Shown here one piece after another: positions 7,073 through 60,118 of a DNA stretch of 64,000 nt. The notes beneath the pieces were generated by a model. That model saw only the letters and a program-made list of their open reading frames with translations, was not told the origin of the DNA and made no database searches. The position numbers were made by a program, and so were the translations under genes. Every line of letters begins with the position of its first letter. Position 1 is the first letter of the stretch. Source of the DNA: Nocardia brasiliensis (GTDB taxonomy: Bacteria > Actinomycetota > Actinomycetes > Mycobacteriales > Mycobacteriaceae); assembly GCF_011801125.1 (NCBI RefSeq), contig NZ_CP046171.1, positions 6,448,001 to 6,512,000 on the forward strand. The letters run 5' to 3'.

Positions 7073-7462
7073 TCACGCCTCGATCTCGCCGTCCAGGTAG
7101 ACCCAGGCGCCGTCGGCGCGCAGGAACCGGCTCACCTCGTGCAGCGAACCGCGGGTGCCGTCGGCGCGATAGTGCGCGACGAACTCGACCAGCCCGGACT
7201 CGTCGAACAGCCCACCGTCCGCGGTGCGCAGGATCTCCAGGAACAGCCAGCGCTGTCCCGGATCGAGGTCGACCTCGGCGGGCCGGGTACGCGGATGCCA
7301 CGACTGCTTCAGATAGTCGGTGTCCCCCACCGCGAAAGCGGTGTAGCGCGAACGCATCAACGCCTCGGCCGTCGCCGCCGCACGCTTCCCGCTCAGCACC
7401 GGCCCGCAGCAGTCGTCGAAGGGTTCGCCCCGACCACACGGACACATCCGCGTCCCACTCAT
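7073..7462 (-). CDS. YchJ family protein (UPF0225) with SEC-C-type zinc motif
   Basis: A 129-residue protein beginning MSGTRMCPCGRGEPFDDCCGP, the N-terminal SEC-C cysteine motif that binds zinc in SecA and YchJ proteins, followed by the conserved LMRSRYTAFAVGD and LKQSWHPRTRP blocks and an NTF2-like C-terminal half (GLVEFVAHYRADG). ATG 7462 places the Cys motif where it lies in E. coli YchJ. A GTG at 7492 overlaps the upstream stop as GTGA and is an alternative giving 10 more residues. Function unknown. Confidence 0.85.
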   Translation of the reverse strand: MSGTRMCPCGRGEPFDDCCGPVLSGKRAAATAEALMRSRYTAFAVGDTDYLKQSWHPRTRPAEVDLDPGQRWLFLEILRTADGGLFDESGLVEFVAHYRADGTRGSLHEVSRFLRADGAWVYLDGEIEA

Positions 7463-7488
7463 CCCTTTATTCTCGCGCGTCACCCTGA

Positions 7489-7959
7489 TCACAATTCACC
7501 CCGGGGTCGCCTCGACCCCGACGCACCGGCCGCGGCGAGGTCCGCGACGAGCGCGACGGTCTGTTCGCGCCAACGACGCAGATCGGTGACGCTCGGCGCG
7601 AGTTCGTAATCGTGGTGGTGCGCGGCCCGCGAGAGCGCGGCCCACAGCACCCCGACCTGGGCCGCCACCTCCGGTCCCGCGAAGGTGCGCAACGCGATCA
7701 GCTGCGCGCGCATCGGACAGCGCATCAGGGCAGGGGCCACCCGGGTCCACAGCTCGTCGACGGACTGTTCCAGCGCGATCCGCAGAATCCACGCGGTGGC
7801 CCGCGACCACAGCCCGCCCGCGTCGGTGACCGCACCGGCGAGCAGCCGATCGACGGTGTCGAGCCGCTCGGCCACCGACGGTCGCGGCGTGCCGTGCCGG
7901 GGTTTGCCGTTGCGTCGCGGGCCGCGGCGCGGACCCCGCGGTGTGCGCCGCTCGGTCAT
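7489..7959 (-). CDS. Hypothetical partner protein of the SMC-like ATPase
   Basis: A 156-residue protein I do not recognise. It has a very basic N-terminus (about 12 Arg/Lys in the first 25 residues) followed by a helical, Ala/Leu-rich body (LDTVDRLLAGAVTDAGGLW, WRVAPALMRCPMRAQLIALRTF-like) with conserved-looking Trp residues. No membrane segment or signal peptide. ATG 7959 follows the ATPase stop by 13 bp with a GGGGG ribosome-binding site between them, so the two are almost certainly co-expressed. The basic tail would suit nucleic-acid contact; inferred only. Confidence 0.7.
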   Translation of the reverse strand: MTERRTPRGPRRGPRRNGKPRHGTPRPSVAERLDTVDRLLAGAVTDAGGLWSRATAWILRIALEQSVDELWTRVAPALMRCPMRAQLIALRTFAGPEVAAQVGVLWAALSRAAHHHDYELAPSVTDLRRWREQTVALVADLAAAGASGSRRPRGEL

Positions 7960-7972
7960 CGCGACCCCCGCC

Positions 7973-10390
7973 TCATCGAGCCAGCCAGGCGACGAATCGT
8001 TCGGTCTCGGTGATCAATTCGCGCATGCCGCGGCCGATCGGCACGTGCGCGCCCGCGGTCGCGTCGCGCAGCGCCTCGACGACCCACTTGCCCTCGCGCG
8101 CGATGAGGTGCTTGTTGAGGTCGTCCACCTTGCCGCCCACCCCCATCACGGCGAGCGCGACTTTCGCCCTGGTGGAGTGGGCAGCGTCGATGTGGCGCTC
8201 CACTTCTCGATGGTTCACCCCGGCGGCGAGCAGGGTGCGCCGGGCCCGGGACAGGCTGGCCGCCTCCACCGCCGACCGGCAGCAGGTCGCCACGAGTTCG
8301 TCGGCGATGGCCTGCGGTAGCTGCGGGGTGCGCACCAGCGCGCGGGCGTCGTCGAGGTAGCGGCGGACCGGATCGCTGGACACCCGCACCTCGACCACCG
8401 AACGGTCGCGGCGCTGCACCTCCAGCACGGTGGCGTCGAGCTCCATGCGGCGCACCGCCTCGGCGAGCCGCTCGTCGTGGGTGAACACCACCACCTGCCT
8501 GGTCCAGGCGACCGCGGCGAGCACCCTGGCCAGCCCGTCCACCTTGGCCGGGTCCATCGCCTGCACCGGATCGTCGATCATGACGAAGCGAAACGGGCTC
8601 TCCTCGACCGTGGCCCGCGGCAGGAACAGCGACAACCCGAGCGCGTGCAGCTCGCCCTGGCTCATCACGCCGAGCGCGGCGCCGTCCACCTCGTCCACCG
8701 TGACGTCGAGCAGCACCCGGCGCGCCGTTCCGGCATTGCCCTGCAAGCGAATCGCGCCGAGCTCCACATTGCTCTGCTGGCGCAGCGTCTGCCAGACCCA
8801 GCGGGCCGTGGTCTCCAACGGCGTCATGCGCTCCCCGCGCAGCCCCGCGGTGGCCGCCTTGAGCCATTCCTCGGCCTTCTTGGTGGTGCGCAGTTCCGCG
8901 GCGTGCGCCGCGACCTCGCGCGCGCCCTCCAGCCAGCTCACGATGCGCGGTACCAGCGGGGTCCACACCTCGTCGAGGCGATCGAGCTCCTTGCGGGTGC
9001 CCTGCTGCACCAGATCGAGTTCGTCGACCAACCTGGCGTGCGCGCCACGCAGCCGATCCGGCAGCTCGTCGCTGTAGTCGGCGGCGGTGAGCGCGGCCCA
9101 GTCGGCCCAGGCCCTGCGCACCGCGGTGGTGTCCACCGAGGGCGGGTTGCGCGGATCGAAATCCAGTTCCGGCGGCACCAGCTCGGGCAGCGACCGCGCG
9201 GCCCGCAACGCGTGCCCGAGTTCGGCGCGCGCCGTGGTCAACGCGTCGACCCGCGCGGCGAGCGTGGCGATCGACTCGTCGGCCTGGGTCAGCCACGCCT
9301 GGTCCAGCTCGCCGCGGCCGCACACCGGGCACGGGCACGCGCCGCTCGCCTCCTGGTGCGCGCGGGCCCGACGCAGCAGCTCGAGCACCCGCAGGTCGGC
9401 CTCGGCGTCGGCGGTGGTGCCCGCGCTCAGCGCGGTGCCGCACTCGGCGAGCCGGGTGGCCACCGCCGCCACCTCGGCCGCGCTCGGCAGGGTGAGCCGC
9501 ACGATCGCGCGCAGACCGGCCGGACCCGCGGGATCGTCGAAGGCGCCGATCACCTCGTTGCCCACGGCGGTGAGATCCGGTTGCGCGGGCCGCAGCAGCG
9601 CGCTGACCCGCACCGCGCGGTCGTCGGCCACGCCGTCCAGCGCTTCCAGCAGTTCCATGCGCTCTTGCCGGGAATCGCGCACGGCGCGTTCCAGTTCCAG
9701 CCTGCGCAGGCGAATCCGCTCCTGCGCCACCGTCAATTCGTCGAGGCCGAGCAGTTGATGCAGCGCGTCGAACAGATCGCTCGGTTTGCCGTCGACCAGC
9801 GCGCCGAGTTCGCTGTAGGACAGGAACGGGCGGTACAGCTCGAGCAGGCCGGCCCAGCGATCGATATCGAATTCCGTTGCCTCGGCAGGGGGATGGCGTT
9901 CGGTCCAGCGCGCGTCGGGCAGGTCGGCAGCGGCGGCCCATTCCTTGGCGATGGTCAGCCGCGGCTGTGTGCCCGCGCCGAGCAACTCGACCTCGATGCG
10001 CGCCGATTCACCCGCGTGCAGGTTGCGCCATCCCTCCCGCCAGGCCGCGGATCGACCGTCCCAGCGTCGATTCCCGCCGGTGAACACCAATTCCGCGGCC
10101 TCGGCGAAACTGGACTTACCGCTGCCGTTACGGCCGACGACCAGGGTGAGCCCGGGTCCGGGCGGCAACCGCAGTTCCGCCTCCTGGCCGATGCCGCGGA
10201 AACCGCGCACCCGGATGGTCTGCAGGAAGATCCCGTGGTCGTCGAATACCGGTGCGGGGTCGTCGTTTTCGTTACTACCAAGGGCGCGCAGGACGGTGCG
10301 TGCCACCGACGGAGTCACCGCGGGGTCCGCGGCGAGCCTGCGGGTGACCACCTCGCTCAGCCGCGGCACCGGATCGGCGTCGGGACGCAT
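7973..10390 (-). CDS. SMC/Rad50-like AAA ATPase with central CPVC zinc-hook-type motif
   Basis: About 805 residues from the ATG at 10390 (GGAGGGGG ends 11 nt upstream). Order: FRGIGQEAELRLPPG strand region typical of RecF/SMC heads, Walker A GRNGSGKSS with Lys92, long Ala/Glu/Arg-rich helical middle, CPCPVCG at 352-358 flanked by helices as in a Rad50 hook, second helical arm, ABC signature GVMSQGEL (575-582), Walker B FVMIDDPVQAMDP (603 onward), D/H-loop FTHDE, and a C-terminal helical domain. The frame stays open upstream to 10813, and a GTG at 10414 preceded by GGAGGA is an alternative start. It heads a two-gene unit with the 156-residue protein and is divergent from the SWIM/MoxR/DUF5682/VWA operon. 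DNA repair or defence is inferred. Confidence 0.82.
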   Translation of the reverse strand: MRPDADPVPRLSEVVTRRLAADPAVTPSVARTVLRALGSNENDDPAPVFDDHGIFLQTIRVRGFRGIGQEAELRLPPGPGLTLVVGRNGSGKSSFAEAAELVFTGGNRRWDGRSAAWREGWRNLHAGESARIEVELLGAGTQPRLTIAKEWAAAADLPDARWTERHPPAEATEFDIDRWAGLLELYRPFLSYSELGALVDGKPSDLFDALHQLLGLDELTVAQERIRLRRLELERAVRDSRQERMELLEALDGVADDRAVRVSALLRPAQPDLTAVGNEVIGAFDDPAGPAGLRAIVRLTLPSAAEVAAVATRLAECGTALSAGTTADAEADLRVLELLRRARAHQEASGACPCPVCGRGELDQAWLTQADESIATLAARVDALTTARAELGHALRAARSLPELVPPELDFDPRNPPSVDTTAVRRAWADWAALTAADYSDELPDRLRGAHARLVDELDLVQQGTRKELDRLDEVWTPLVPRIVSWLEGAREVAAHAAELRTTKKAEEWLKAATAGLRGERMTPLETTARWVWQTLRQQSNVELGAIRLQGNAGTARRVLLDVTVDEVDGAALGVMSQGELHALGLSLFLPRATVEESPFRFVMIDDPVQAMDPAKVDGLARVLAAVAWTRQVVVFTHDERLAEAVRRMELDATVLEVQRRDRSVVEVRVSSDPVRRYLDDARALVRTPQLPQAIADELVATCCRSAVEAASLSRARRTLLAAGVNHREVERHIDAAHSTRAKVALAVMGVGGKVDDLNKHLIAREGKWVVEALRDATAGAHVPIGRGMRELITETERFVAWLAR

Positions 10391-10862
10391 CTCGTCGAGA
10401 ACCCCCTCCACCACCGAGCCGCTACCGGTCCTCCGATCCCGTGCGCCTGCATGACGCGCAAGCGCTGCCCGCGGCGCACTGTCGAAGCTGAGCGAAACGC
10501 TACCCGATCGGGTCGCTTTCGCCCACCGGAGGCAGCGACCGGCGACGTCATGCGAATCTGCCCGCGGGGATGGATATGGCCATCGAATCGGCTGGGGCCG
10601 CGCTTCGATGTCCACCCCTCGCCAGCCCCGGCGGGCAGCTCGATGGTGTAACACCCGATTTGGGTGGCTCGGTCGAGCCGAACAGGACAGAATGCCAGAC
10701 AACCCGAACTCGTGCAAGATGTTTTCGGTATCGAATCCATCGACAGCACAGTATTTTCCGTACGATCGGCGGCGGCATGTGGGCGGCCACGCGACGACCG
10801 GGCGGCCGCGCACTTGTCGGTGGTCTGCGGTAGAAATCCGTCAACCGAGAAACGGGGGAACC
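10391..10862. other. Divergent intergenic region between the ATPase unit and the MoxR-VWA operon
   Basis: A 472-bp stretch with no convincing gene. It is less GC-biased than the surroundings around 10700-10780 and contains TACGAT near 10771, a possible -10 element for the rightward operon, although no matching -35 at 17-18 bp is clear. Open frames crossing it on either strand have atypical composition, apart from a possible N-terminal extension of the ATPase. It probably carries both divergent promoters. Confidence 0.45.
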
Positions 10863-13724
10863 ATGTCGCGCTGGAGCGAGGACCAGGTCACGGCGCTCGC
10901 GCCGGACGCGAGCTCGCTCTCGGCCGCGCGCAAGCTGGCCGGGCGCTGGCACGGCACCGGGCACCACGACACCGCGCTGTGGGGTAGCTGCCGCGGCAGC
11001 GGCGCCGAGCCGTATCGCACCGTGGTCGATCTCGGCGGCCCGGCCTACCAATGCTCCTGCCCCAGCCGGAAATTCCCGTGCAAGCACGCGCTGTCACTGT
11101 TGCTCGAATGGGCGGCGGGCCGGGTCGCGGACGCGCCGGAGACCGCCGACTTCGCGGCCACATGGCTCGCGGGCCGGGCCGCGCGCGCCGCGCGGTCCGC
11201 CCCGGCCGCCCGCACCGCGAACCCGGCGACGGCCGAACAGCGGCGGGTACGGGTCACCGCCGGACTGGAGGAACTCGAGGTCTGGCTCGGCGACCAGGTC
11301 CGCACCGGCCTGGCCCAGAGCGACCGCTCGTTCCGCGCGTTCGAGACGATCGCCGCCCGCATGGTCGACGCCCAGGCGCCCGGCGTCGCCGCCGCCTTGC
11401 GGCGACTGCCGATCACGATGGCGACCAGGCCCGATTGGCCGGCGGCGGTGCTGCGCGAGTACGCCAGGCTGCACCTGCTGATCGTCGCGCATCGCCGGTT
11501 GGACGAGCTCGCGCCCGCGCTGCGGGCCAGCGTCCGCACGCATATCGGCTATCCGAACCCGGCCGAGGCGGTGCGCACCGAGCCCGCGGTCCGCGATCTG
11601 TGGCAGGTGCTCGGCGTCCGCGTCACCGAGGAGCAACGCCTCCATACCCGGCGCACCTGGTTGTACGGCCGCGCGACCCGGCGCTGGGCGCTGCTGGTGG
11701 ACCACTCGTTCGGGTCCCCCACCTTTCCGGCCGACGTACCGACCCTCGGCTTGTGCGCCGACGCGGAGCTGCACTACTACCCGGGTGCGGCCCCGCTGCG
11801 CGCGCTATGGGGTGAACGGCACAGTGCCGCTGAACCTTTCACCACACTGCCGGTCGATCCGGAACGGCCGGGCACCATCGCGGCGGCGCTGGCCGAGCAC
11901 GCGGCGGCGCTCGGCGCCGACCCCTGGCTGCGCGGCTGGCCCGTGCTGCTCGTCGACGTCGTGCCGGTGTGCACCGAAAGTGGCTGCTGTCTGGTCGAAT
12001 CCGACGGTACCGCACTTCCCGTGGCCGATACCGAACAGCCATGGCGGCTGCTCGGCGTCTCCGGCGGCCACCCGGTGACTGTCGCCGCCGAGTGGACCGC
12101 GGCCGGTTTGCTGCCGATCTCGGTGTGCTGCGCGGGCGAGGTCATCGATCCGGCACCGGCCGATCCCGGCGGCGCGGCGAATCCCGGCGGCACACGGGGC
12201 GCCGACGGCGCCGACCTGACCTCCGCCGCCCTGCTCGGCACCGCCCGCCGCGCCCCCGACCTCGCCCGGCTCGCCGCGCCCGTCGCCGAGATCGCCGCGC
12301 ACCTGCCCGCCGACCCGGCCGTGCGCCTGCTCGAATCCGCCGCGCTACAGGATGTTTTCGTGCGCGGTGGCCATCTGGCGAGCACCGCGAGCGTGCCGGA
12401 GCCCGCCGCGGACGACCCCCGATCGCTGCTGCCCCGCGCCGCGGCGGACCGTCTCGCGCGCATGGTGCGGGAGCGCTCCCCCTTCCTGCCCGAGTGGTTC
12501 GCGGCGGCAACGCCGCACGACTACCGCGCGCCCGACGCGCTGTGCGCGCAGCTGCTGGAGCAGGCCGAGCGCAGCGCCGAGCACCGGGAGCCCCTGCTGC
12601 GCCTGGCGGGCACCCGGGGCCGGTGGCTCGCCGAGCGGCATCCACAATGGCGAAACCTGCTGCGCGAGCACGACTCCGTGACACCGGCCGCGCAGGTCTG
12701 GCAGTACGGCCGCGCCCCGGAGCGCGCGGCCTGGCTCACCGAACTCCGCCGCACCGACGCCGACGCCGCGCGCGAGGCGCTCGCCGCGGCCTGGCCCAAG
12801 GAATCCGGTCCGCTGAAGGCCGAACTGCTCGCGGTGCTCGCCGACGGGATCTCGCGTGCCGACGAGCCGCTGCTGGAGGCCGGGCTGGACGACCGGCGCG
12901 CCGACGTGCGCCGCACCGCCGCCGGCCTGCTCTCGCTGCTGCCCGAATCGGCCCTCGCCAAGCGCATGGCCCGGCGCGCGGGCACCTGGCTGCGGGTCGA
13001 GCACCGGCTGCTGCACACCGAACTCGTTGTCGCGCTGCCCGATACGCTCGACGACGCGGCGCGGCGCGACGGCATCAGCGACGGCGGTGTCGAGTTCGGC
13101 TATCGGTGGGGCGGGGCGCCCGACCGCACCGCGGGCAGGCTGCGCCAGCTCGTCGCCGCGACACCGCTGACGCACTGGACGCGCGTGCTCGGCGGACCCG
13201 GCAAGACCGTCAAGGCCAGGGTCGACGACCGCTTCCGCCAGCCGGTCTTCGACGGCTGGGTGGATGCCGCACTGGCACAGCGGGATTCGGCCTGGGCACG
13301 GGCGCTGTTCGACGCGGGCGTGCCCACCGACCTGGCCATGCTGCGCAGGCGCGAGCTGTTCGCGCTGCTGCCGCTGCCCGACCGGACCAGACACCTGCTC
13401 GGCCTCGACGGCGCCTGGCTCTCCGAGATCGAGGCGCTGCTGCCGGCGATGGGCCATCCGTGGCCGGAACCGTTGGCGCAGCACGTGATCCTGCTGCTGT
13501 TGGAGCGGGCCCGCGCGGCGGCGCGGCGACCGCAGACACACGGCACCGGCCCCAGCGCGCACCGTTCGCTGCTGGCCGCGGCGGCGACGCACCTGCCGGT
13601 CGGCGCGGCCGGGGCGGCAGGCGTCGCGGCCCGCCGCTGCGGCGACGCCGCCTGGGAGCGGGCCTTCGACCAACTCGCCCATGACCTCAACCACCGCTCG
13701 ATGATGCTCGAGGAGTTGCAGTGA
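10863..13724 (+). CDS. SWIM zinc-finger protein, YehQ-like (first gene of MoxR-VWA cassette)
   Basis: A 953-residue protein whose N-terminus holds a SWIM finger CxC-x6-CxH (Cys64, Cys66, Cys73, His75, in YQCSCPSRKFPCKH), a zinc fold that binds DNA or protein. The rest is large and helical with HEAT-like stretches (DDRRADVRRTAAGLLSLL); the second half is probably the DUF5691-type region. ATG has GGGGGAA 4 nt upstream. It overlaps the MoxR gene by GTGA. In E. coli the equivalent set is yehL (MoxR ATPase), yehM (DUF5682), yehP (VWA) and yehQ (SWIM). Role inferred: substrate or target recognition for the chaperone-like MoxR-VWA machine. Confidence 0.85.
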   Translation: MSRWSEDQVTALAPDASSLSAARKLAGRWHGTGHHDTALWGSCRGSGAEPYRTVVDLGGPAYQCSCPSRKFPCKHALSLLLEWAAGRVADAPETADFAATWLAGRAARAARSAPAARTANPATAEQRRVRVTAGLEELEVWLGDQVRTGLAQSDRSFRAFETIAARMVDAQAPGVAAALRRLPITMATRPDWPAAVLREYARLHLLIVAHRRLDELAPALRASVRTHIGYPNPAEAVRTEPAVRDLWQVLGVRVTEEQRLHTRRTWLYGRATRRWALLVDHSFGSPTFPADVPTLGLCADAELHYYPGAAPLRALWGERHSAAEPFTTLPVDPERPGTIAAALAEHAAALGADPWLRGWPVLLVDVVPVCTESGCCLVESDGTALPVADTEQPWRLLGVSGGHPVTVAAEWTAAGLLPISVCCAGEVIDPAPADPGGAANPGGTRGADGADLTSAALLGTARRAPDLARLAAPVAEIAAHLPADPAVRLLESAALQDVFVRGGHLASTASVPEPAADDPRSLLPRAAADRLARMVRERSPFLPEWFAAATPHDYRAPDALCAQLLEQAERSAEHREPLLRLAGTRGRWLAERHPQWRNLLREHDSVTPAAQVWQYGRAPERAAWLTELRRTDADAAREALAAAWPKESGPLKAELLAVLADGISRADEPLLEAGLDDRRADVRRTAAGLLSLLPESALAKRMARRAGTWLRVEHRLLHTELVVALPDTLDDAARRDGISDGGVEFGYRWGGAPDRTAGRLRQLVAATPLTHWTRVLGGPGKTVKARVDDRFRQPVFDGWVDAALAQRDSAWARALFDAGVPTDLAMLRRRELFALLPLPDRTRHLLGLDGAWLSEIEALLPAMGHPWPEPLAQHVILLLLERARAAARRPQTHGTGPSAHRSLLAAAATHLPVGAAGAAGVAARRCGDAAWERAFDQLAHDLNHRSMMLEELQ

Positions 13725-14821
13725 CCACCGACAACGTGACGCCCGATCTGCTGCGGCCGCACGCCGAACAGGCCTACGCCGCGGAACTGCGCGCCCTCGC
13801 GGCCGCCGACGAGCGCCCGCGTCCGCCGTCCTGGCTGCTCTCGCCGTGGGCCGTGCTCACCTATCTGCTCGGCGGCACCCTCGACGACGGCACGGTGATC
13901 AGCCCGAAGTACGTGGGGCCGCGCAGGCTCATGGAGGTCGCCGTCGCCACCCTGGCCACCGATCGCGCGCTGCTGCTGCTCGGCGTGCCCGGCACGGCCA
14001 AGACCTGGGTATCGGAACATCTTTCGGCCGCCATCTGCGGCGCGTCGACGCTGCTCGTCCAGGGCACCTCCGGCACCGCGGAGGAGGCGATCCGTTACGG
14101 CTGGAACTACGCGCGGTTGCTCGCCGAGGGCCCGAGCGCCGAAGCGCTCGTGCCGTCCCCGGTGCTGACCGCGATGCGGACCGGCGCCATCGCGCGCGTC
14201 GAGGAGCTCACCCGCATCCCCGCCGACGTGCAGGACGCGCTGATCACCATCCTGTCCGAAAAGACGCTGCCGATACCCGAGCTCGGCACCGAGGTGCAGG
14301 CGGCGAAGGGCTTCAACGTCATCGCCACGGCCAACGACCGCGATCGCGGCGTGAACGAGTTGTCCTCCGCGCTGCGCCGCCGCTTCAACACGGTGGTGCT
14401 GCCGCTGCCCGCGGACGAGGACGAAGAGGTCGAGATCGTCAGCCGCCGGGTGGCCCAGCTCGGCGCCGCGCTGGAGCTGCCGACGGTGCCCGCCGCGGCC
14501 GAGGAGGTGCGCCGAGTGGTGCGCGTCTTCCGCGAATTGCGTTCCGGGCATACCGCCGACGGCCGGACCAAGCTCAAGTCGCCCTCGGGCACCCTGTCCA
14601 CCGCCGAGGCGATCTCGGTGATCACCAACGGGATCGCGCTGTCGGCCCACTTCGGCGACGGCGTGCTGCGGGCCGCCGACATCGCGGGCGCGGTGCTCGG
14701 CTCGGTGATCAAGGACCCGGTCACCGATGCGGTCGTGTGGACCGAATACCTCGAAGCCGTGGTCCGCGAACGTCCGGAGTGGTCGGACTTCTACCGCGCC
14801 TGCCGCGAGATCAGCGGGTAG
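13721..14821 (+). CDS. MoxR-family AAA+ ATPase, YehL-like
   Basis: A 366-residue AAA+ ATPase. Walker A is GVPGTAKT with Lys94. The Walker B region reads ARVEELTRIPADVQDALI, so Asp of the usual DE pair is replaced (VEE). Sensor 1 is VIATANDRDRG and the arginine-finger region is SSALRRRFNTVVLPLP. MoxR proteins act with VWA partners as chaperone-like remodellers; the YehL type forms its own subfamily. The GTG start overlaps the SWIM gene stop, with AGGAG 5 nt upstream. Followed after 37 bp by the DUF5682 gene. Confidence 0.9.
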   Translation: MTTDNVTPDLLRPHAEQAYAAELRALAAADERPRPPSWLLSPWAVLTYLLGGTLDDGTVISPKYVGPRRLMEVAVATLATDRALLLLGVPGTAKTWVSEHLSAAICGASTLLVQGTSGTAEEAIRYGWNYARLLAEGPSAEALVPSPVLTAMRTGAIARVEELTRIPADVQDALITILSEKTLPIPELGTEVQAAKGFNVIATANDRDRGVNELSSALRRRFNTVVLPLPADEDEEVEIVSRRVAQLGAALELPTVPAAAEEVRRVVRVFRELRSGHTADGRTKLKSPSGTLSTAEAISVITNGIALSAHFGDGVLRAADIAGAVLGSVIKDPVTDAVVWTEYLEAVVRERPEWSDFYRACREISG

Positions 14822-14858
14822 GCGTGCGCGATCGATCGCCGTGGCCGGGGATGGCCGC

Positions 14859-17261
14859 ATGACCAGCGTCGAGGGTGCGCCCGCCGCGACGAACGGCGCC
14901 GCGAGCGCCCCACTCACCCGGGTGTTCGGCATCCGGCACCACGGGCCGGGCTCGGCCCGCTCGCTGCGCGCGGCGCTGACCGAGTTCCGGCCGGACACCA
15001 TCCTGATCGAGGGCCCGGCCGATGCCGATCCCCTGGTCGGCTACGTCGCCGCCGATGGTATGACGCCGCCGGTCGCGCTGCTCGCCTACGTGCCCGACGC
15101 TCCCGCGACGGCGGCGTTCTGGCCGTATGCGGTGTTCTCACCGGAATGGCAGGCGCTGTCTTACGCCGTGGCGCACGGGGTGCCCGTGCGGTTCTGCGAT
15201 CTGCCCGCGAGCACGGTACTGGCCGTCGACGACACACCGGGTGATCGGTTCGATCCGCTCGGCGCGCTGGCGGCGGCGGGCGGCTACGACGACGCCGAGC
15301 GCTGGTGGGACGCGGTGGTCGAATCCGCCCCGGACGCCGCCGCTTTCGACGCGATCACCGAGGCGATGGGCGCGCTGCGCGAGTCGGCACAGCACGAACC
15401 GGCACAGCGCGAATCGGCACAGCGCGGCGACGACCGGGCGCCCCGGCTCTCGACCGTGGAAACCGAACGCGCCGAGGCGGATTCGGTCGCCGAGGCGATC
15501 GACGACGAACCGGAGCCGGAGCCGACGCTGTTCGGACCGGCCCGGATCGACGCGCACACCCTGCGGCGCGAGGCCTATATGCGTCAGTGCATGCGCAAGG
15601 CGCTGAAGGACGGATCGCGGCGCCTCGCGGTGGTCTGCGGGGCGTGGCACGCGCCCGCGCTCGCGGGCAAGCTCGGCCCCGCCGCGCCGGATACCCGTCT
15701 GTTGAAAGGCATTCCGAAGACGAAGGCCACGGTGACCTGGGTGCCGTGGACGCATTCGCGCCTGTCCAGCCGGTCCGGTTATGGCGCGGGCATCACCTCG
15801 CCGGGCTGGTACCACCACCTGTTCACCGAAACCGAGCGCCCGATCGTGCGCTGGCTCACCAAGGTGGCCGGGGTGCTGCGCGCCCACGATCTGCCGGTCT
15901 CCAGCGCGCACATCATCGAGGCGGTCCGGCTCGCCGATACCCTCGCCGGCCTGCGCGGCCGGCCACTGGCCGGGTTGTCCGAGGTCACCGAGGCCACACG
16001 CGCGGTGATGTGCGCGGGTGAGGAGACGATGCTGCGCTTCGTCGTCGACGAACTGGTGGTCGGCGAGGCGCTGGGCACCGTGCCCGAAGGCACGCCCGCC
16101 GTCCCGCTGGACGCGGACCTGCGCGCCCGGATCCGGTCGCTGCGGATGAAACAGGAACCGACGGCCCGCACAATCGATCTCGATCTGCGCAAGCAGCGCG
16201 AGGTCGAGCGCTCCCGGCTGCTGCACCGGCTGCGCGTGCTCGGCATCGGGTGGGGCACCCTGACCACCAGCGAGGTGCGCGGCACCGGCACCTTCCGGGA
16301 GACCTGGACGCTGCGGTGGCGCCCGGACTACGCGATCTCGATCATCGAGGCCTCGCGCTGGGGCACCACCGTGCGCACCGCCGCCGAGGCGAAGATCCTC
16401 GACGCCGCGAACCGGGACGACAGCGGCGTCGGCGAGCTCACCGCCGCGCTCGAGGTCGCGCTGCTGGCCGATCTCGGCGGCGCCACCGACGGCCTGATCG
16501 CCCGGCTGGCCTCGGTGGCCGCGCTGGATCACGACATCACCCACCTGCTCGCGGCACTGCCCGGCTTGATCCGGACGCTGCGCTACGGGGATGTGCGCGG
16601 CACCGACGGCGCCGCGCTCACACACGTCGTGGACGGCCTGCTGGTCCGCGTCTGCGCCGGCCTGCCCGGCGCGGTGACCGGACTCGACACCGACGCGGCC
16701 ACCGAGTTCCGCACGCTGCTCGACGCGGCGCACACCGCGGTCAGCACCCGCGACGACGACTGGGCCACCGCGCAGTGGCTCGGCGCGCTGCATCGCCTCG
16801 CCGACCGCGACGACGTGCACGGCGCGCTCGTCGGCCGCGCGGTCCGGCTGCTCTGCGACGCGGGCCGCATCGATGACGCCGAATCCGCGCGCAGGCTCTC
16901 GGCCGCGCTCTCGGTCGGCAACACCGCCGCCGCCAAGGCCGCCTGGATCGACGGTTTCCTCGGTGGCCGCGGCCTGCTGCTGGTGCACGACCGAGAGTTG
17001 TTGCGCCGCATCGACGATTGGTTGCGTGAGCTGCGCGAGGATCAGTTCGTGGCGACCCTGCCGCTGCTGCGCCGCACCTTCGCCGCGTTCGAGTCCGGCG
17101 AGCGGCGCGCCATCGGTCAGGCGGTACGCGACGGCGGTCCGGTCACCGGCGGCGCCGGGCACGGCGGCGATTTCGATGTCGCACGCGGCCGCCACGCGCT
17201 GCGCACCGCCGCACAGATCTTGGGTGTCTCGATCCCCCACCGGCAAGGAGCACGGCCATGA
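14859..17261 (+). CDS. DUF5682 family protein, YehM-like
   Basis: An 800-residue soluble protein. The N-terminal block GIRHHGPGSARSL (24-36), followed by PDTILIEGPADAD (Glu51), and a second His block VVCGAWHAPAL (His264) give two GxxH-type motifs separated by about 235 residues. That layout, and the helix between the first motif and the PDxxxxE strand, resembles the TraB/TIKI/EreA-ChaN metal-dependent hydrolase fold; this is my inference. The C-terminal half is helical repeats rich in Ala/Leu. ATG 14859 has GGGGATGG just upstream. It overlaps the VWA gene by ATGA. Confidence 0.82.
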   Translation: MTSVEGAPAATNGAASAPLTRVFGIRHHGPGSARSLRAALTEFRPDTILIEGPADADPLVGYVAADGMTPPVALLAYVPDAPATAAFWPYAVFSPEWQALSYAVAHGVPVRFCDLPASTVLAVDDTPGDRFDPLGALAAAGGYDDAERWWDAVVESAPDAAAFDAITEAMGALRESAQHEPAQRESAQRGDDRAPRLSTVETERAEADSVAEAIDDEPEPEPTLFGPARIDAHTLRREAYMRQCMRKALKDGSRRLAVVCGAWHAPALAGKLGPAAPDTRLLKGIPKTKATVTWVPWTHSRLSSRSGYGAGITSPGWYHHLFTETERPIVRWLTKVAGVLRAHDLPVSSAHIIEAVRLADTLAGLRGRPLAGLSEVTEATRAVMCAGEETMLRFVVDELVVGEALGTVPEGTPAVPLDADLRARIRSLRMKQEPTARTIDLDLRKQREVERSRLLHRLRVLGIGWGTLTTSEVRGTGTFRETWTLRWRPDYAISIIEASRWGTTVRTAAEAKILDAANRDDSGVGELTAALEVALLADLGGATDGLIARLASVAALDHDITHLLAALPGLIRTLRYGDVRGTDGAALTHVVDGLLVRVCAGLPGAVTGLDTDAATEFRTLLDAAHTAVSTRDDDWATAQWLGALHRLADRDDVHGALVGRAVRLLCDAGRIDDAESARRLSAALSVGNTAAAKAAWIDGFLGGRGLLLVHDRELLRRIDDWLRELREDQFVATLPLLRRTFAAFESGERRAIGQAVRDGGPVTGGAGHGGDFDVARGRHALRTAAQILGVSIPHRQGARP

Positions 17262-18421
17262 ACACCGACGAGGAAACCCGTTCGCGCCGTTGGCGTCTGG
17301 TGCTCGGCACCGCCGCCGAGGCCGACCTCGGCGCGCTGAGTTCCGCCGACGACCTCGCCATGGACCGCGCGCTGTCGGCGCTCTACAACGACGACGAGGA
17401 GCGGACCTCGGGCAAGCGGTCGGGCGGGCTCCAGGGCTCGGCGCCGCGCGTCGCCCGCTGGCTCGGCGACATCCGGAACTACTTTCCCTCGACCGTGGTC
17501 GAGGTACTGCAGCGCGACGCGGTGCAACGACTGAACCTCACCCAATTGCTGCTGGAGCCCGAACTGCTGGAGGCGGTGGAACCGGACGTGCACCTGGTCG
17601 GCACGCTGCTCGGCCTGAACCGGGTGATGCCCGAAACCACCAAGGCCACCGCACGTCTGGTGGTCGGCAAGGTAGTGCGCGAGATCGAGCGGCGCATTGC
17701 CGCGCGCACCGTCGCCGCCGTCGCGGGCGCGTTGAACCGGGCCGCGCGGGTCACCCGTCCCAGGCTGCGCGATATCGACTGGGACCGCACCATCCGCAAG
17801 AACCTGGCCAACTACCTGCCCGATCACCGGACGGTCGTGCCGCAGCGGCTGGTGGGCTACGGACGCAAAGCCCAAGCGGTGCAGCGCGATGTCGTGCTCG
17901 CCATCGACCAGTCCGGCTCGATGGCGTCGAGCGTGGTCTACGCCTCGGTGTTCGGCGCGGTGCTCGCATCGATACGCGCGCTGCGGACCTCCCTGGTGGT
18001 CTTCGACACCGAAATCGTCGATCTCACCGACAAACTCGACGATCCGGTCGAGGTCCTGTTCGGCACCCAGCTCGGCGGCGGCACCGATATCAACCGCGCC
18101 ATCGCCTACGCCCAGTCCTTGATCACCCGTCCCGCCGACACCCTCTTCGTCCTCATCTCCGACCTCTATGAGGGCGGTATCCGCGAGGAAATGCTGCGCC
18201 GGATCAACGCGATGAAGGACTCCGGCGTCCAGATCGTGGTCTTGCTCGCGCTTTCCGACGAGGGCGCGCCCGCCTTCGATCACGACAACGCCGCGGCCCT
18301 GGCCGCGCTGGGCGTCCCGGCGTTCGCCTGCACCCCGGACAGGTTCCCCGACCTGTTGGCCGTCGCGCTGGACCGCGGCGATCTGCGCGCGTGGGCCGAC
18401 GCCGAGGCCGGGCGGAGTTAG
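17258..18421 (+). CDS. VWA domain protein, YehP-like
   Basis: A 387-residue protein, last gene of the cassette. Its C-terminal von Willebrand A domain has the full metal-ion-dependent adhesion site: DQSGS (Asp217, Ser219, Ser221), the Thr of GGGTDINRA, and the Asp in LISDLYEGG. The N-terminal half is helical and contains the acidic NDDEERTSGKRSGG segment. No membrane helix or signal, so cytoplasmic. ATG overlaps the DUF5682 stop (ATGA) with AAGGAG upstream. VWA proteins are the usual partners of MoxR ATPases. Confidence 0.88.
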   Translation: MNTDEETRSRRWRLVLGTAAEADLGALSSADDLAMDRALSALYNDDEERTSGKRSGGLQGSAPRVARWLGDIRNYFPSTVVEVLQRDAVQRLNLTQLLLEPELLEAVEPDVHLVGTLLGLNRVMPETTKATARLVVGKVVREIERRIAARTVAAVAGALNRAARVTRPRLRDIDWDRTIRKNLANYLPDHRTVVPQRLVGYGRKAQAVQRDVVLAIDQSGSMASSVVYASVFGAVLASIRALRTSLVVFDTEIVDLTDKLDDPVEVLFGTQLGGGTDINRAIAYAQSLITRPADTLFVLISDLYEGGIREEMLRRINAMKDSGVQIVVLLALSDEGAPAFDHDNAAALAALGVPAFACTPDRFPDLLAVALDRGDLRAWADAEAGRS

Positions 18422-50852: not shown

Positions 50853-52109
50853 TCAGACAACCCGCAGGTTGAGGCGTTGTTTACGCAGCTCGCGCCGTCC
50901 GCGCTGCAACTCGTCACCGAGGTTGAACCGGCCGCGCGGCTGGTTGAGCAGGTGGGCGTACACGCCGTAGGTCACATCAGCTTTGGAGTGCCGCACGCGT
51001 TTGCACAGCTCTACGACGTCCATTCCGCCCGCGATCATCGTGGACACATACCAGTGCCGCAGGCTGTGGAAGTGGAACCCGTCGCGGCCGGTCGGCAAGC
51101 CTGCCCGCTTGGCCGCCTCGGTGATCCGGCGGTGGAACGTGGAGTAGGTCATGGGCTTGCCGTTCTCCAGCAGCATCAGGCCCTGCGTGCGCCCTTTCAG
51201 GGCCTCGATGAGGCTCTGAGCCACGTATGGGTCGACGGGGAACCTCCGCTTCGAGCCCCGGCTCTTCGGCAGCTCGTAGGGCTTCTCAGGGTCCTTTCGG
51301 TCCCGCTTCTGCATCCACTGTTGGGTCAGCTTGTAATCCGGCTCCGGTTTGTCCCAGCGACCGGTTTCGATGAGCGCCCCGCACGCTTCCTTGGCCCTCA
51401 GGCCCAGCCCCGCGCCCAGCCAGAAGGCCACGCGCAGGTCCTCGCTCAGTTCGTCGTAGAAGGCCCAGATCTGTTCCGTGTCGGGTACCCACGTGCTGGA
51501 CTCGTCGTCTTCGTCGTCCAGGTCTTCGATGTCTGCTTCGTCGTCCTTCAACAGCACGGGTCGCGCCCGCTTCGTGCAGGGCTGCCGGACGCGTAGCTCG
51601 GCTTCGATAGCCGCATCCATGATCCGTGTGAGCTGTTTGAAGATGTCCAAGCGAGTGGTGTGCCTCATGCCCTCGGCCTTCAGCTGAAGCATGAGCCGCT
51701 GCACGTGGTGTTCGAGGATTGCTGAGACATGTTGGTCGGCGATGTCGAACCGGGCAATGATGTTGTTGATCGACCTGTAGGTGTTTCGGCTGGATATCGC
51801 GACGTCTTGGAGGCTGAGCCATTCTGGCATCCACTCCCGCAACGTGATTCGTGCCTTGTCACGGGTGACATGGAGTCCTGTGGTGCGGATCGTCGCTACT
51901 TGGTTCTGTGCCCATTCGTCAGCGTCGGCTCGGAGGGTGAAGCTCTTCGTGTGGGGCCGGAATTGCAGACCGTCCTGATACGCGCCGCGCCACTGCTGAC
52001 CTTTGCCGTAGCTCTTGGACCTTAGGAATTTTCCACGGTCATCCTTCTTCTTGAGATGCCATGTGTCATAGGGACGTAGCGCTCTCAGTGGTGGGATCGG
52101 CTTGGTCAC
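50853..52109 (-). CDS. int: Phage tyrosine integrase
   Basis: A 418-residue tyrosine recombinase. N-terminal AP2-like arm-binding region (WRGAYQDGLQFRPHTKSFTL), SAM-like core-binding domain (LREWMPEWLSLQDVAISSRN), an acidic insert (DDEADIEDLDDEDDESS), and a catalytic domain with Arg238 (GLGLRAKEAC), His348-Leu-Leu/Arg351 (FHFHSLRHWY), His374 (VRHSKADVT) and nucleophile Tyr384 (YGVYAH). All active-site residues are present. GTG start; the excisionase gene lies 22 bp upstream. Confidence 0.92.
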   Translation of the reverse strand: MTKPIPPLRALRPYDTWHLKKKDDRGKFLRSKSYGKGQQWRGAYQDGLQFRPHTKSFTLRADADEWAQNQVATIRTTGLHVTRDKARITLREWMPEWLSLQDVAISSRNTYRSINNIIARFDIADQHVSAILEHHVQRLMLQLKAEGMRHTTRLDIFKQLTRIMDAAIEAELRVRQPCTKRARPVLLKDDEADIEDLDDEDDESSTWVPDTEQIWAFYDELSEDLRVAFWLGAGLGLRAKEACGALIETGRWDKPEPDYKLTQQWMQKRDRKDPEKPYELPKSRGSKRRFPVDPYVAQSLIEALKGRTQGLMLLENGKPMTYSTFHRRITEAAKRAGLPTGRDGFHFHSLRHWYVSTMIAGGMDVVELCKRVRHSKADVTYGVYAHLLNQPRGRFNLGDELQRGRRELRKQRLNLRVV

Positions 52110-52131
52110 GTGCGATAACTCCTGCTTGTGG

Positions 52132-52353
52132 TCAGCCTCCGAACTGGTCCTCCTCCCAAGCGATTACATCCACGAGCCGGTAGCGGCAGCGCCCACCGCC
52201 AGGCTTGGCGAATCGTGGACCGCGACCTTCCCAAGCCCAATTGGCAAGCGTCTGTACGGAGATCTTCAGTCGTGCGGAAACTTCGGCTCGAGTGAGCCAT
52301 TCACTGTTCTCGGACAGTTCGGAACCTTCCGTAAGGATTTCAGGGTTGTCCAT
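52132..52353 (-). CDS. xis: Excisionase (MerR-type helix-turn-helix)
   Basis: A 73-residue winged-helix protein: WLTRAEVSARLKISVQTLAN, GRGPRFAKPGGGRCRYRLVD and VIAWEEDQF, the BldC/Xis-type HTH_17 pattern. Small size and position just upstream of integrase on the same strand indicate recombination directionality factor, although it could also act as a repressor. ATG 52353 is chosen; the open frame further upstream has no phage-like composition. Confidence 0.82.
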   Translation of the reverse strand: MDNPEILTEGSELSENSEWLTRAEVSARLKISVQTLANWAWEGRGPRFAKPGGGRCRYRLVDVIAWEEDQFGG

Positions 52354-52417
52354 ACCCGAGCGGGTTGCCGTCGGGTAGCTGAGTTGAGAAGCCGTCTCGC
52401 GGCGAAACTTTCGTGCG

Positions 52418-52447
52418 TTGACGCTGAGGGTGGGGAGTCCATACGGT
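52418..52447 (+). promoter_or_regulatory. Sigma70-type promoter candidate for the DUF2637 gene
   Basis: TTGACG (52418-52423) and TACGGT (52442-52447) separated by 18 bp, in the gap between divergent xis and DUF2637 genes. Confidence 0.5.
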
Positions 52448-52505
52448 CGAGTCCGACAGACAAAGAGAGCCCCCCACCGGACTGGTACTCCGATGAGGGG
52501 CGGCA

Positions 52506-52524
52506 CACCAAGTGAAAGTTGGTG
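52506..52524 (+). promoter_or_regulatory. Hairpin over the DUF2637 leader
   Basis: CACCAA-gtgaaag-TTGGTG, perfect 6-bp arms, ending 7 nt before the ATG at 52532. In RNA it would sit where the ribosome-binding site should be, so it may dampen translation or bind a protein. Confidence 0.45.
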
Positions 52525-52531
52525 CAACACG

Positions 52532-52996
52532 ATGCTATCTCGTGCGTTCTCACGCGCCTCTGCGGTGACTCCGGTTCAGGCGGCGACGGCCGGGACCGTC
52601 GCGGTCGGCGGATTCTCGTTCCTGGTCTCCTACACCGAGTTGTCTTGGCTTGCAGCGCATTACCAGACCCCTCATCCGTGGTCGTTCCCATTGATCGTTG
52701 ACGGTCTGGTGATCGTGTCCACGATTGCGGCGACTGTGATGCGTCGGCACTCTTGGTATGCGTGGGCGCTGCTCGGTGTCGGCGCGCTCTTGTCGGTAGT
52801 GGGCAATGGTTTGGCCGCGTACCTGTCGACCGGTTCGTGGGTCGCGGTTGGTATCTCGGCTGTGCCGCCGTTCGTGCTGCTCGCTGTCACCCATCTGACG
52901 ATGGTGCTGCGCGATCAGGCCGACGCACACGCCGCCGCGGTCGAGCAGCCCACACAGGAGTTCGACATCTCTGAACTGGAGCTTGTCCCGGCTTAG
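52532..52996 (+). CDS. DUF2637 domain membrane protein
   Basis: A 154-residue protein with four predicted membrane helices (GTVAVGGFSFLVSYTEL, FPLIVDGLVIVSTIAATVM, WYAWALLGVGALLSVVGNGL, VAVGISAVPPFVLLAVTHLT) and a short acidic tail. DUF2637 occurs in actinobacterial integrative elements, plasmids and phages, often near replication or transfer genes; role unknown. It is the only rightward gene of the prophage seen here. Confidence 0.82.
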   Translation: MLSRAFSRASAVTPVQAATAGTVAVGGFSFLVSYTELSWLAAHYQTPHPWSFPLIVDGLVIVSTIAATVMRRHSWYAWALLGVGALLSVVGNGLAAYLSTGSWVAVGISAVPPFVLLAVTHLTMVLRDQADAHAAAVEQPTQEFDISELELVPA

Positions 52997-53176
52997 CTGC
53001 GCCCGGCCGGTACCCCCTGGACTCACCCCCGAGAGCTGGGCGCTCCGGAGGTTACCGGTCGTGCAGTGCTAACTTTGCCGCCGTCGCTGTGCCGTTCCTA
53101 CGTCGCGGCGATCGATGTCGGCGGTTTCCGCCTCCGGCAATCGTTCGAGACTGATAGTCGTCTCGGATACGTGGTT

Positions 53177-53204
53177 GCGAGGGTCCGGCACGACGGACCC
53201 TCGC
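53177..53204 (-). terminator. Hairpin terminator at the end of the leftward early operon
   Basis: GCGAGGGTCC and GGACCCTCGC form a perfect 10-bp stem with an 8-nt loop, 6 bp past the RNA ligase stop. No U-run follows on the leftward strand, so it may act as an intrinsic-like or RNA-stabilising end. Confidence 0.65.
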
Positions 53205-53210
53205 ATTCCG

Positions 53211-54473
53211 CTACGCAGCCTCCTGCATCGACTCGAGATCCGCGATCCCTTCATCGAGCATCCGTGACTCGTACTCGAAGAACTCGCTTGCCTTGGCCTT
53301 CAGCAAGGTTGGCCGTAGTCCGTCGACGCGGACCACCACGCCTTCGTCGACCGTCGTTCCGGGGTCGAGCGGGACCGCTCGACGGTGGCCTTCGTCGTGT
53401 AGTCGGCGGTTCATCCACCAGTCGATGTCGAGGTCTTCGGCGAAGCCTGCCCAGAGCAAGGGGACCGTGTTCAGACCGAGCCCGGCGCAGAACTCTTCGA
53501 CCTGCGGCCATGAGAGGTCGACGGTGACGCCGTCCGGGTTCACGGTGGTGACGCGGTAGATGTAGAGCTGGGCTGTGCCTGGCGGCACCTGGTAGGTGTA
53601 GCCCTGTTGGATGGGCTGCCCGGTCGGTGTCCAGCCGACGAGTTCGCCGTAAACCACGTAACCGGCCGGGATCAGGCCATCGAGGCGTGCGCCTTCAACG
53701 GTCCAGATGTCGGTGTCGTAGAAGTGATTCTGGTCCGGGTCGTTGGCGTCTTTGATGACGCGACGCGAGCCATAGACGTTGTCGTACTGGGTCTGTTGGA
53801 CCTGGATGCCGAGACGGCCGGCGAGCCGTTCGCGCCAGCTGAGCTTGCGCGCAACGAGGGTGTTACCGACCCTGATCGAGGTCCCGTGGAGCTTCTGCGT
53901 GCACCACACGTAGGCGTCTTCAGCGATGAGGTGATTGTGGCGCCAGTAGTTCGCGGTGTCGATGTGCTTGGGGAAGTGCCGCTCGGTGACTCGGCGCGGC
54001 TTAGGCGCAGCGTTTCCTTGTGTGCTGGTGGTCCGCGGTGGCCGGATCTCGTACTTGGAGCAAATCTCGATGGTGTTTAGGTGGTCGAAGGTGTCGCCTT
54101 CGCGGAGCTGACTGGTGTCGATTCCGGTGAACGCCAACGACTTCAACGGCATGAACAACGCATTCGACCGGTGCCCTGCGAATTTGATGGCTTTGACCCG
54201 CCGATTGTCCTCCAGGTAGCCGGTCTGGGTGGGGTCCTCGTTGAGATCGGCGTTGCGATAGAGGTTGTTTGCGGTGGCGTACTCATGGCTCAGTGCCGCC
54301 TCGGCCGGTATGAAGACACCGAGATCACCCGGTGCCCAGCCTTTCTGGGCGATGGCCTGATGCCCGAACATCGGCAGGCCGACGATTCGGTCACGGCCGG
54401 GCAGGGGAACGACCGTCTTCACCGACGTGATGACGGCCGCGTAGTTCGCGTTCTTGGGGGTGTCGAAACGCAA
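53211..54473 (-). CDS. RNA ligase
   Basis: A 420-residue nucleotidyltransferase-fold ligase. Motif I is KLHGTS with adenylated Lys194, preceded by a long N-terminal domain; then VVYGELVGW (motif III-like), DEGVVVRVDG (motif IV, Glu377) and LLKAKASE (motif V lysines 392/394). TTG start, 3 bp after the kinase/phosphatase stop, so the two form an RNA-end-healing and sealing pair like T4 Pnkp and Rnl. Such pairs repair tRNAs cut by host anticodon nucleases. Role inferred from family and pairing. Confidence 0.85.
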   Translation of the reverse strand: MRFDTPKNANYAAVITSVKTVVPLPGRDRIVGLPMFGHQAIAQKGWAPGDLGVFIPAEAALSHEYATANNLYRNADLNEDPTQTGYLEDNRRVKAIKFAGHRSNALFMPLKSLAFTGIDTSQLREGDTFDHLNTIEICSKYEIRPPRTTSTQGNAAPKPRRVTERHFPKHIDTANYWRHNHLIAEDAYVWCTQKLHGTSIRVGNTLVARKLSWRERLAGRLGIQVQQTQYDNVYGSRRVIKDANDPDQNHFYDTDIWTVEGARLDGLIPAGYVVYGELVGWTPTGQPIQQGYTYQVPPGTAQLYIYRVTTVNPDGVTVDLSWPQVEEFCAGLGLNTVPLLWAGFAEDLDIDWWMNRRLHDEGHRRAVPLDPGTTVDEGVVVRVDGLRPTLLKAKASEFFEYESRMLDEGIADLESMQEAA

Positions 54474-54476
54474 GAG

Positions 54477-55391
54477 TTAGAAGTTCCCTTCGGCTACGTG
54501 GAAGCATTTGAGGCCGAGCCGTCGCCACATGGCGACGACGCTGTTTCGGTCGTCGAAAACGCCGAGCACGTTGTAGTGGTGTCGGATGTATTCGTTGAAG
54601 ATTTCGAGCTTGACGACGTGGTCGGGCCGGTTGTCGTCGTCGGCCCGCATGTACATCTGGTCCGCATAGATCCAATGGCGGTGCAGCCACGCTTGGGTCA
54701 GGTCCATGCACATGGCTTTGCGGCCCGACACAACGATCATCACGGGTGCCCCTGACGGTGTTTCGTCCCTGGACAGCGTCTCGTAGACGTGGCGTACAAC
54801 GTGATCGACGTCGTCTTCGCCGACCCGGCTGAAGTCGTAGGGGTTCCGCGCGCGCATGTGCGCTAGCGTGCCGTCGAGGTCGAAAATCCACGCTTCAGGC
54901 TTGCTGATGTCAGGTACGTAGGGTTCGACTGCGGGCACGGTCCGGGCGGTGACCTCGGCCCATCGATCGAGCGGAAACCGGTTGGCGATGTCGAGGATTC
55001 GCCAGTGCGGAACATAGCGTTGCCCGGCGCGTTGCCGCGCGCGATTTCTTTCGATGCAGGTCTGTGCGTCGGTGTGGAAGTCCACGCACTGGAATGCAGC
55101 TCCGTGCTCGTGCGCGAGGTCCGCCCAGTTGCAGGCGACTCGTAGACGGAGGTTTGTGTCGTCGACGATGACCGAGGTCCCCTGGTCGAGAAGACTTGCC
55201 GCCATGGATTTTTGAGCTGCGGTGACGTCACACTCCTGCGCGTCTGTCAGGATGCCTTCGCCGTTGAACAACATCGCGCGGAGATCGTCACGATTGACCC
55301 GCGCCCGGCCCGATTGCGCTGCAACCCAATTGAGCGCATATGTGGTCTTACCGCAGCCCGGATATCCACGGGTGATGACGAGTTCGGTCAC
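54477..55391 (-). CDS. Polynucleotide 5'-kinase / 3'-phosphatase (T4 Pnkp-like)
   Basis: A 304-residue two-domain enzyme in the T4 order: N-terminal kinase with P-loop GYPGCGKTT (9-17), NRDDLRAM and IVDDTNL, then an HAD phosphatase with DLDGT (Asp171, Asp173) and SGRKAMCMDLTQAWL, GVFDDRNSVVAMWRRLG. Converts broken RNA 2',3'-P/5'-OH ends to ligatable ones. GTG start with GGGGG upstream; immediately upstream of the RNA ligase. Confidence 0.9.
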   Translation of the reverse strand: MTELVITRGYPGCGKTTYALNWVAAQSGRARVNRDDLRAMLFNGEGILTDAQECDVTAAQKSMAASLLDQGTSVIVDDTNLRLRVACNWADLAHEHGAAFQCVDFHTDAQTCIERNRARQRAGQRYVPHWRILDIANRFPLDRWAEVTARTVPAVEPYVPDISKPEAWIFDLDGTLAHMRARNPYDFSRVGEDDVDHVVRHVYETLSRDETPSGAPVMIVVSGRKAMCMDLTQAWLHRHWIYADQMYMRADDDNRPDHVVKLEIFNEYIRHHYNVLGVFDDRNSVVAMWRRLGLKCFHVAEGNF

Positions 55392-55413
55392 GCGTCAACC
55401 CCCGGCAGGTCGA

Positions 55414-56145: not shown

Positions 56146-56297
56146 TCGCACCCGCCCGAGTAACTGGAGGCCGAGGACGAATCACACGAATAGTTCGACG
56201 AATCCGACTGATAGGCCGCAGTTGTGGTGTCGTAACTGGTTGAACTCGCAGTGCTGGTCGTGTAGGTGGTGCGCTTCTTCTTGTTTCGGTAGGTCAT
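56142..56297 (-). CDS. 51-residue Ser/Thr/Tyr-rich phage protein
   Basis: MTYRNKKKRTTYTTSTASST continues for 51 codons (Ser/Thr/Tyr about 60%), ending CDSSSASSYSGGCE. ATG overlaps the upstream stop by ATGA (56294-56297) and its TGA overlaps the LysB-like start by ATGA (56142-56145). This double coupling supports translation. A basic start and two Cys are the only features; no family recognised. Confidence 0.6.
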   Translation of the reverse strand: MTYRNKKKRTTYTTSTASSTSYDTTTAAYQSDSSNYSCDSSSASSYSGGCE

Positions 56298-56822: not shown

Positions 56823-56824
56823 GT

Positions 56825-58869: not shown

Positions 58870-58898
58870 GGTTGATCGCTTTCGGTGCGGCTACGAGA

Positions 58899-58926: not shown

Positions 58927-58940
58927 GGTACTAGTTCAGA

Positions 58941-60111: not shown

Positions 60112-60118
60112 TGCTCCC

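Follow-up and report, generated by a model that had tools for sequence, protein, structure and literature searches.

What does a MoxR-type AAA+ ATPase do when it is encoded together with a VWA protein, a SWIM zinc-finger protein and a member of the DUF5682 family, and is such a gene set simply the Yeh cassette of Escherichia coli in another phylum? These questions are raised by a four-gene cassette on the + strand of the Nocardia brasiliensis chromosome, within a 64,000-nucleotide stretch (the window; positions 6448001-6512000 of the 7.95 Mb genome) that we analyzed computationally. We predict that the four genes encode a stable chromosomal protein machine that is related to the E. coli Yeh proteins and distinct from them. 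There is, in our judgment, about an even chance that this is an ATP-driven machine that controls a TIKI-fold hydrolase and is tied, in Streptomyces, to supercoiling homeostasis.

Composition of the cassette

The first gene (10863..13724; ATG start) encodes a SWIM zinc-finger protein of 953 amino acids (aa) fused to DUF5691, with the finger, CxCx6CxH, at approximately residues 56-83 (CSCPSRKFPCKH). It is followed by a YehL-like MoxR-type ATPase of 366 aa (13721..14821; GTG start) with the Walker A motif GVPGTAKT, by a DUF5682 protein of 800 aa (14859..17261; PF18934; ATG start, with an in-frame GTG at 14841 as a possible alternative) and by a CoxE-type VWA protein of 387 aa (17258..18421; ATG start) whose motifs DQSGS, GGGTD and ISD resemble a metal ion-dependent adhesion site (MIDAS). 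Pfam places all four proteins in the families named by a first-pass annotation of the DNA (E-values of 2.6e-6 for SWIM, 3.2e-39 for AAA_5, 6.4e-257 for DUF5682 and 2e-52 for VWA_CoxE), and a check of the open reading frames (ORFs) agrees with its description of four genes with two 4-base-pair (bp) overlaps, between genes 1 and 2 at 13721-13724 and between genes 3 and 4 at 17258-17261. Overlooked in that annotation was a fifth family, DUF5691, which occupies residues 452-953 of the SWIM protein (Pfam E = 3.9e-134). DUF5691 is probably HEAT-like, as suggested by a single weak HEAT_2 match (E = 0.015) in one relative.

Relationship to the E. coli Yeh genes

The first-pass annotation regarded the cassette as an actinobacterial version of the Yeh cassette, made of the same four families as yehQ, yehL, yehM and yehP. 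The homology holds for three of these, with the window proteins 42% identical to YehL, 39% to YehP and 29% to YehM. However, the BLASTP alignment of the SWIM protein with YehQ spans only 21 residues in the region of the zinc finger, and YehQ was not retrieved with a profile of the N-terminal SWIM family; therefore three proteins, and not four, can be counted as Yeh homologues. DUF5691 was not found in YehQ, nor in E. coli by a control search. The order of the genes also differs, being SWIM/DUF5691-MoxR-DUF5682-VWA in the window and L-M-P-Q in the Yeh set, which in E. coli is preceded by the DUF4132 gene yehI and then yehK.

At least four cassette types are built around one common triad of MoxR, DUF5682 and VWA. 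Type A, that of the window, has members in Actinomycetota, Cyanobacteriota, Chloroflexota and Thiofilum (Pseudomonadota). Type B is the Yeh set, which we also find around DUF5682 in genomes G128 (inferred to be Streptomyces), G267, G286 and G205 and, in a weaker form, in G124 (YehQ match of 19 bits) and G293 (no YehQ match). Three actinobacterial L-M-P-Q sets have DUF4132 upstream (L141, L146 and L148). Genome G205, which belongs to the same genus as the window, carries a type B set (L149) in addition to the window type; in L149, DUF5682 and VWA form one ORF (7312-11043), and there is no DUF4132/YehI match in the fetched stretch. Type C consists of a protein without a Pfam match, VWA, MoxR and a divergent DUF5682. 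A second, paralogous cassette in the window's own genome is of this type (L030 5480-12090, approximately 6891979-6898589), and its DUF5682 has the motifs LELC, RERYM and GAAH. In type D, MoxR accompanies a single ORF that encodes both DUF5682 and VWA, and a DUF4132 gene lies upstream (L142, L143, L150 and L154).

We built a MoxR tree from 38 of the 78 type A rows and every one of the 14 others. A branch with 100/100 support separates the 38 type A rows from the rest, and E. coli YehL groups with type B. The tree is unrooted, its branches are long, and on it type B requires two changes and the fused SWIM-DUF5691 state at least two. Given its own MoxR branch, and the E. coli-type sets that coexist with it in actinobacteria, the window set is a sister type spread over four phyla and not an actinobacterial Yeh. 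Despite the homology of YehL, YehM and YehP, we consider it extremely improbable that the cassette is simply an actinobacterial version of the Yeh cassette, as it lacks YehQ and has DUF5691 in its place. What the two types share is the MoxR, DUF5682 and CoxE-type VWA homologues, a glutamate-glutamate (EE) Walker B motif, a SWIM-finger protein and a chromosomal position common to nearly all strains; for instance, 5162 of 5426 E. coli genomes carry yehL-yehQ with at least 80% of the length covered. They differ in gene order, in the adjoining DUF4132 and the missing DUF5691 of E. coli, in the MoxR branch and in a SWIM protein that is unalignable outside the finger.

The window ATPase is YehL-like in that it has an AAA_5 domain, an EE Walker B motif (RVEELTR) and a VWA partner gene. 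The non-canonical Walker B pointed out in the first-pass annotation is indeed present, but it is a signature of the subfamily rather than a peculiarity of this locus, as EE is found in 92 of 92 MoxR rows (78 of type A, 7 of type B including E. coli YehL, 3 of type C and 4 of type D). Among 76 VWA frames of named loci, DxSxS is present in all 76 and GG[GT]T[DN] in 73.

A predicted TIKI-like fold in DUF5682

The words DUF5682, DUF5691 and DUF5724 were not found in any paper of the literature searched. In two models of DUF5682 (predicted local distance difference test scores of 87 and 82), an N-domain at approximately residues 14-330 that resembles the TIKI superfamily is followed by a helical-repeat half. 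The N-domain model best matches the TIKI/TraB/Ere/ChaN superfamily, which accounts for the first 15 VIA rows and the first 5 Foldseek rows (Foldseek E = 0.08 at best), and the parallel beta-sheet core of the TIKI fold is present as judged on AlphaFold models. The structure alignment covered 45 of 80 named loci (48 chosen for diversity, minus L066, L070 and L111), 12 of 120 YehM-type proteins and the window protein. In the comparison of residues, the type B rows are mostly enterobacterial and other proteobacterial proteins. H27, E51, RExxM and GxxH are retained in all type A to D rows compared. At the 2His/2Glu site of TIKI proteins, H27, E51 and H264 are invariant, and the position of the first Glu holds R26.

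DUF5682 thus has a His, a Glu, the R[DE]xxM motif of Ere and the GxxH motif of TraB in places that correspond to those of the superfamily, and differs from it in the Arg that replaces the first catalytic Glu, in the fused helical-repeat half and in being encoded beside MoxR and VWA. Against membership is the sequence comparison with the TraB/Ere family, in which no significant similarity was detected and the TraB and Ere alignments were thin. Weighing these models, we think it quite likely that the DUF5682 N-domain has a TIKI-like fold.

A probable counterpart in Streptomyces

Nine Streptomycetaceae loci have the cassette flanked by a B12-binding mutase-domain gene on one side and sucCD on the other. 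For S. coelicolor, SCO4800 is reported as an isobutyryl-CoA mutase (PMC6629963), and the succinyl-CoA synthase subunits as SCO4808 and SCO4809 (PMC8981147). SCO4804 is a Gly/Pro-rich protein of 815 aa and 86.04 kDa whose gene is separated from its neighbors by 103 and 171 bp, and SCO4806 is secreted (PMC8120823). At locus L215 (genome G405), DUF5682 is likewise an 815 aa protein, of 86.12 kDa; it starts 102 bp after MoxR, and among several candidate VWA starts is a GTG 170 bp beyond its end, versus 171 bp for SCO4804. In near relatives, the approximately 1.86 kb from VWA to sucC leave space for two genes, and one ORF there opens with a signal-like stretch. Because flanking genes, length, mass and spacings agree, the genes SCO4801 to SCO4805 very probably encode DUF5691, SWIM, MoxR, DUF5682 and VWA, as assigned by position and size in relatives. 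We are highly confident that SCO4804 is the type A DUF5682 of Streptomyces, a match made through near relatives by order, length, mass and spacings. One difference from the window cassette is that, in L247 and L248, which are near relatives, SWIM and DUF5691 are encoded by two separate genes that are divergent.

The Streptomyces counterpart of the cassette has therefore very probably been encountered before, unrecognized. SCO4804 was met in a screen for genes that influence DNA-coiling enzymes, and has a positive influence on topA (PMC8120823). A transposon in sco4804, which also affects sco4805 by polarity, reduced TopA to approximately 50% and the topA transcript to approximately 70%, with plasmid supercoiling reported as unchanged (PMC8120823). 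Upon TopA depletion, sco4804 and adjacent genes rose approximately eightfold, and overexpression of SCO4804 increased topA promoter activity and, briefly, topA and gyrB transcripts (PMC8120823). SCO4804 is described as binding DNA non-specifically and as not binding TopA, and an indirect influence was suggested (PMC8120823). The words MoxR, VWA, YehM, DUF5682, ATPase and zinc finger are absent from the main text of PMC8120823. The statement of the first-pass annotation that the set has no established role therefore calls for a qualification, since effects of mutation and overexpression on topA are published for SCO4804, very probably the Streptomyces counterpart.

Distribution and conservation

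Scanning named genomes supplied 80 loci, the best of 576, and the sample therefore leans to close relatives. Layouts were counted at 69 of the 80, omitting 11 with short flanks. All five families (SWIM, DUF5691, MoxR, DUF5682 and VWA) occur together at 68 of these 69 loci, an association beyond chance; the exception is L102 (Acaryochloris), which has DUF5682 only. At both L102 and L090, the latter from a Nostocaceae metagenome-assembled genome and short on one side, the fetched stretch includes a cyanobacterial DUF5682 but neither MoxR nor VWA. A single ORF encodes SWIM and DUF5691 in the loci examined from Nocardia and Micromonosporaceae, and two genes do so in the other taxa examined, with 18 of the 69 loci fused, 41 split and collinear, and 9 divergent (Streptomycetaceae, with the pair encoded on the strand opposite to the rest).

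Co-occurrence was examined in 198 evenly drawn actinobacterial genomes, where DUF5682 is present in 17 and DUF5691 over the cut-off in 16, all inside the 17 (Fisher p = 1.2e-22, uncorrected for relatedness); another three lack DUF5682 and have a DUF5691 match that stays below the cut-off. Likewise, in 99 relatives, DUF5691 is over the cut-off in 62, all inside the 70 with DUF5682, and one more has a match below the cut-off without DUF5682. Long-type DUF5682 and DUF5691 are present in 58 of 59 genomes of the window's genus, the remaining one (G202) lacking both and having only a weak type C-like DUF5682 match. None of four genomes from another genus of the same family has DUF5682, and DUF5682 of some type is found in 145 of 150 genomes of the genus of G128. 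The nearest DUF5682 proteins to the window copy, at 86-87% identity, are from N. brasiliensis and N. vulneris.

Among viral contigs, 47 candidate stretches included no relative. With all types counted, tblastn at E = 1e-5 matched a single phage record out of 50,697; of the 72,556 plasmid records it matched 36, and the three best plasmid matches sit in records of 2.7 to 11.9 Mb. As an aside, the phage match (MT835988.1, 10638-12755) is a 28% identical DUF5682 in an unannotated 14.2 kb faecal record named 'Bacteriophage sp.' that is possibly bacterial DNA. Taken as a whole, the cassette looks like part of the core genome of its genus and not like a mobile island, in neighborhoods that were not scanned for defence genes.

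A proposed mechanism and its alternatives

We propose a model in which the MoxR AAA+ ring and its CoxE-type VWA partner would form an ATP-driven, metal-ion-dependent (MIDAS) regulatory pair, a motor role suggested because MoxR-VWA pairs with established roles exist (PMC3893208, PMC7159879). DUF5682 would be the effector, a role assigned because of its model and its conserved residues; on the modeled fold, its TIKI-superfamily N-domain, carried by a helical-repeat scaffold, would probably cleave a peptide or ester bond by hydrolysis. Recruitment of the target would fall to the SWIM finger and to DUF5691, which is probably HEAT-like. The cassette would be a chromosomal housekeeping or stress module and not a mobile defence system, and in Streptomyces excess negative supercoiling would switch it on, with topA (and gyrB) expression upheld indirectly. 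The Streptomyces phenotype points to supercoiling or to an accompanying stress. The analysis itself establishes the gene set, the cassette types, the fold of the model, the conserved residues and the core distribution in the genus; complex formation, hydrolysis, the target, the HEAT-like nature of DUF5691 and a Nocardia set that acts as the Streptomyces set does are all parts that we infer. In its most specific form, the model would describe a regulated intracellular hydrolase of a new kind, in which the MoxR-VWA motor acts as the gate of a TIKI-fold peptidase or esterase that SWIM and HEAT-like DUF5691 aim at protein complexes on over-twisted DNA; as a whole, this version is improbable.

The MoxR-VWA pair could instead load or mature a metal or haem centre, as in CoxD-CoxE or magnesium chelatase, with the TIKI domain as a ChaN-like carrier or client. 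Such a cofactor-insertion machine is rather improbable, as no adjoining metalloenzyme is conserved across taxa (the most widespread neighbor family reaches 7 genus labels), a hydrolase would also account for the conserved residues, and the topA phenotype offers no cofactor. In CoxD-CoxE, RavA-ViaA and other MoxR-VWA pairs, the genes for the AAA+ protein and its VWA partner likewise cluster; the third component here is DUF5682 and not one of the partners listed for those pairs. A different kind of activity is considered in PMC8120823, where SCO4804 is discussed as a DNA-binding transcription regulator of topA. The lowered TopA and topA transcript of the mutant, and the promoter activity gained on overexpression, are what such a regulator would produce, but the non-specific binding and the indirect influence suggested in that report, together with a model of a TIKI-like domain plus helical repeats, make this quite improbable.

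The first-pass annotation had also pointed to conflict systems, in which a MoxR-VWA ternary-type switch would free a TIKI-fold, toxin-like effector on infection. MoxR-VWA pairs are switches in predicted conflict systems (PMC7159879), TIKI folds include effectors, and the cassette shares with the MoxR-vWA ternary systems (Kaur 2020) a MoxR, a VWA and a third component. However, the window MoxR scores 18.3 bits against the bpMoxR profile cut-off of 27. The Pfam matches of the four window proteins include no VMAP, iSTAND or other known third component, in a search for which the existence of such models was not checked. In PADLOC, none of the four proteins has a match at E <=0.01: SWIM, DUF5682 and VWA are unmatched, and MoxR matches only IetA (E = 0.025 and 0.035). 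A defence role is disfavored because the cassette is near-universal in its genus, because its neighbors are conserved, such as the mutase-domain gene and sucCD in Streptomycetaceae, and because PADLOC gives no match; the prevalence of the sister type in E. coli and the rarity of relatives in phage and plasmid records weigh the same way. We regard this explanation as unlikely, and favor the regulated hydrolase.

Neighboring genes and other features of the window

Divergent from the cassette, on the - strand, is a gene for an SMC/RecF-like ATPase (7973..10813; Pfam SMC_N E = 2.7e-14; the longest ORF, with a true start that may lie further in). This protein weakly resembles several PADLOC ATPases. 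When neighbors were compared at 13 of the 15 named Nocardia loci and at 11 loci from elsewhere, the SMC-like ATPase was present at 11 of the 13 Nocardia loci and at none of the 11 others, and an FtsX-like transporter at 13 of 13. The SMC/RecF-like ATPase is therefore probably outside the cassette. Elsewhere in the window, the region 50853-62366 encodes a phage-type integrase, an RNA ligase beside a PNKP-like kinase-phosphatase, a DNA polymerase A, a mycobacteriophage Gp53-like protein and a Toprim protein, and is lower in GC content (0.61-0.63 from 52 kb). It looks like a prophage, or the remnant of one, with an RNA-repair pair.

Implications

Within the core genome of E. coli, the Yeh genes have long been a gap in knowledge, and MoxR-VWA cassettes are widespread, many of them without a known target. 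Placing DUF5682 in the TIKI superfamily leads to a catalytic hypothesis with named residues, and the SCO4804 link offers a strain with a published phenotype. The four types around one triad suggest which parts are motor or effector and which serve for aiming. If the most specific version of the model, improbable as it is, were true, the cassette would be a supercoiling-stress machine that follows the logic of AAA+ proteases with an unrelated active site, and E. coli Yeh and the two further types would be diversified versions of it with other aiming parts.

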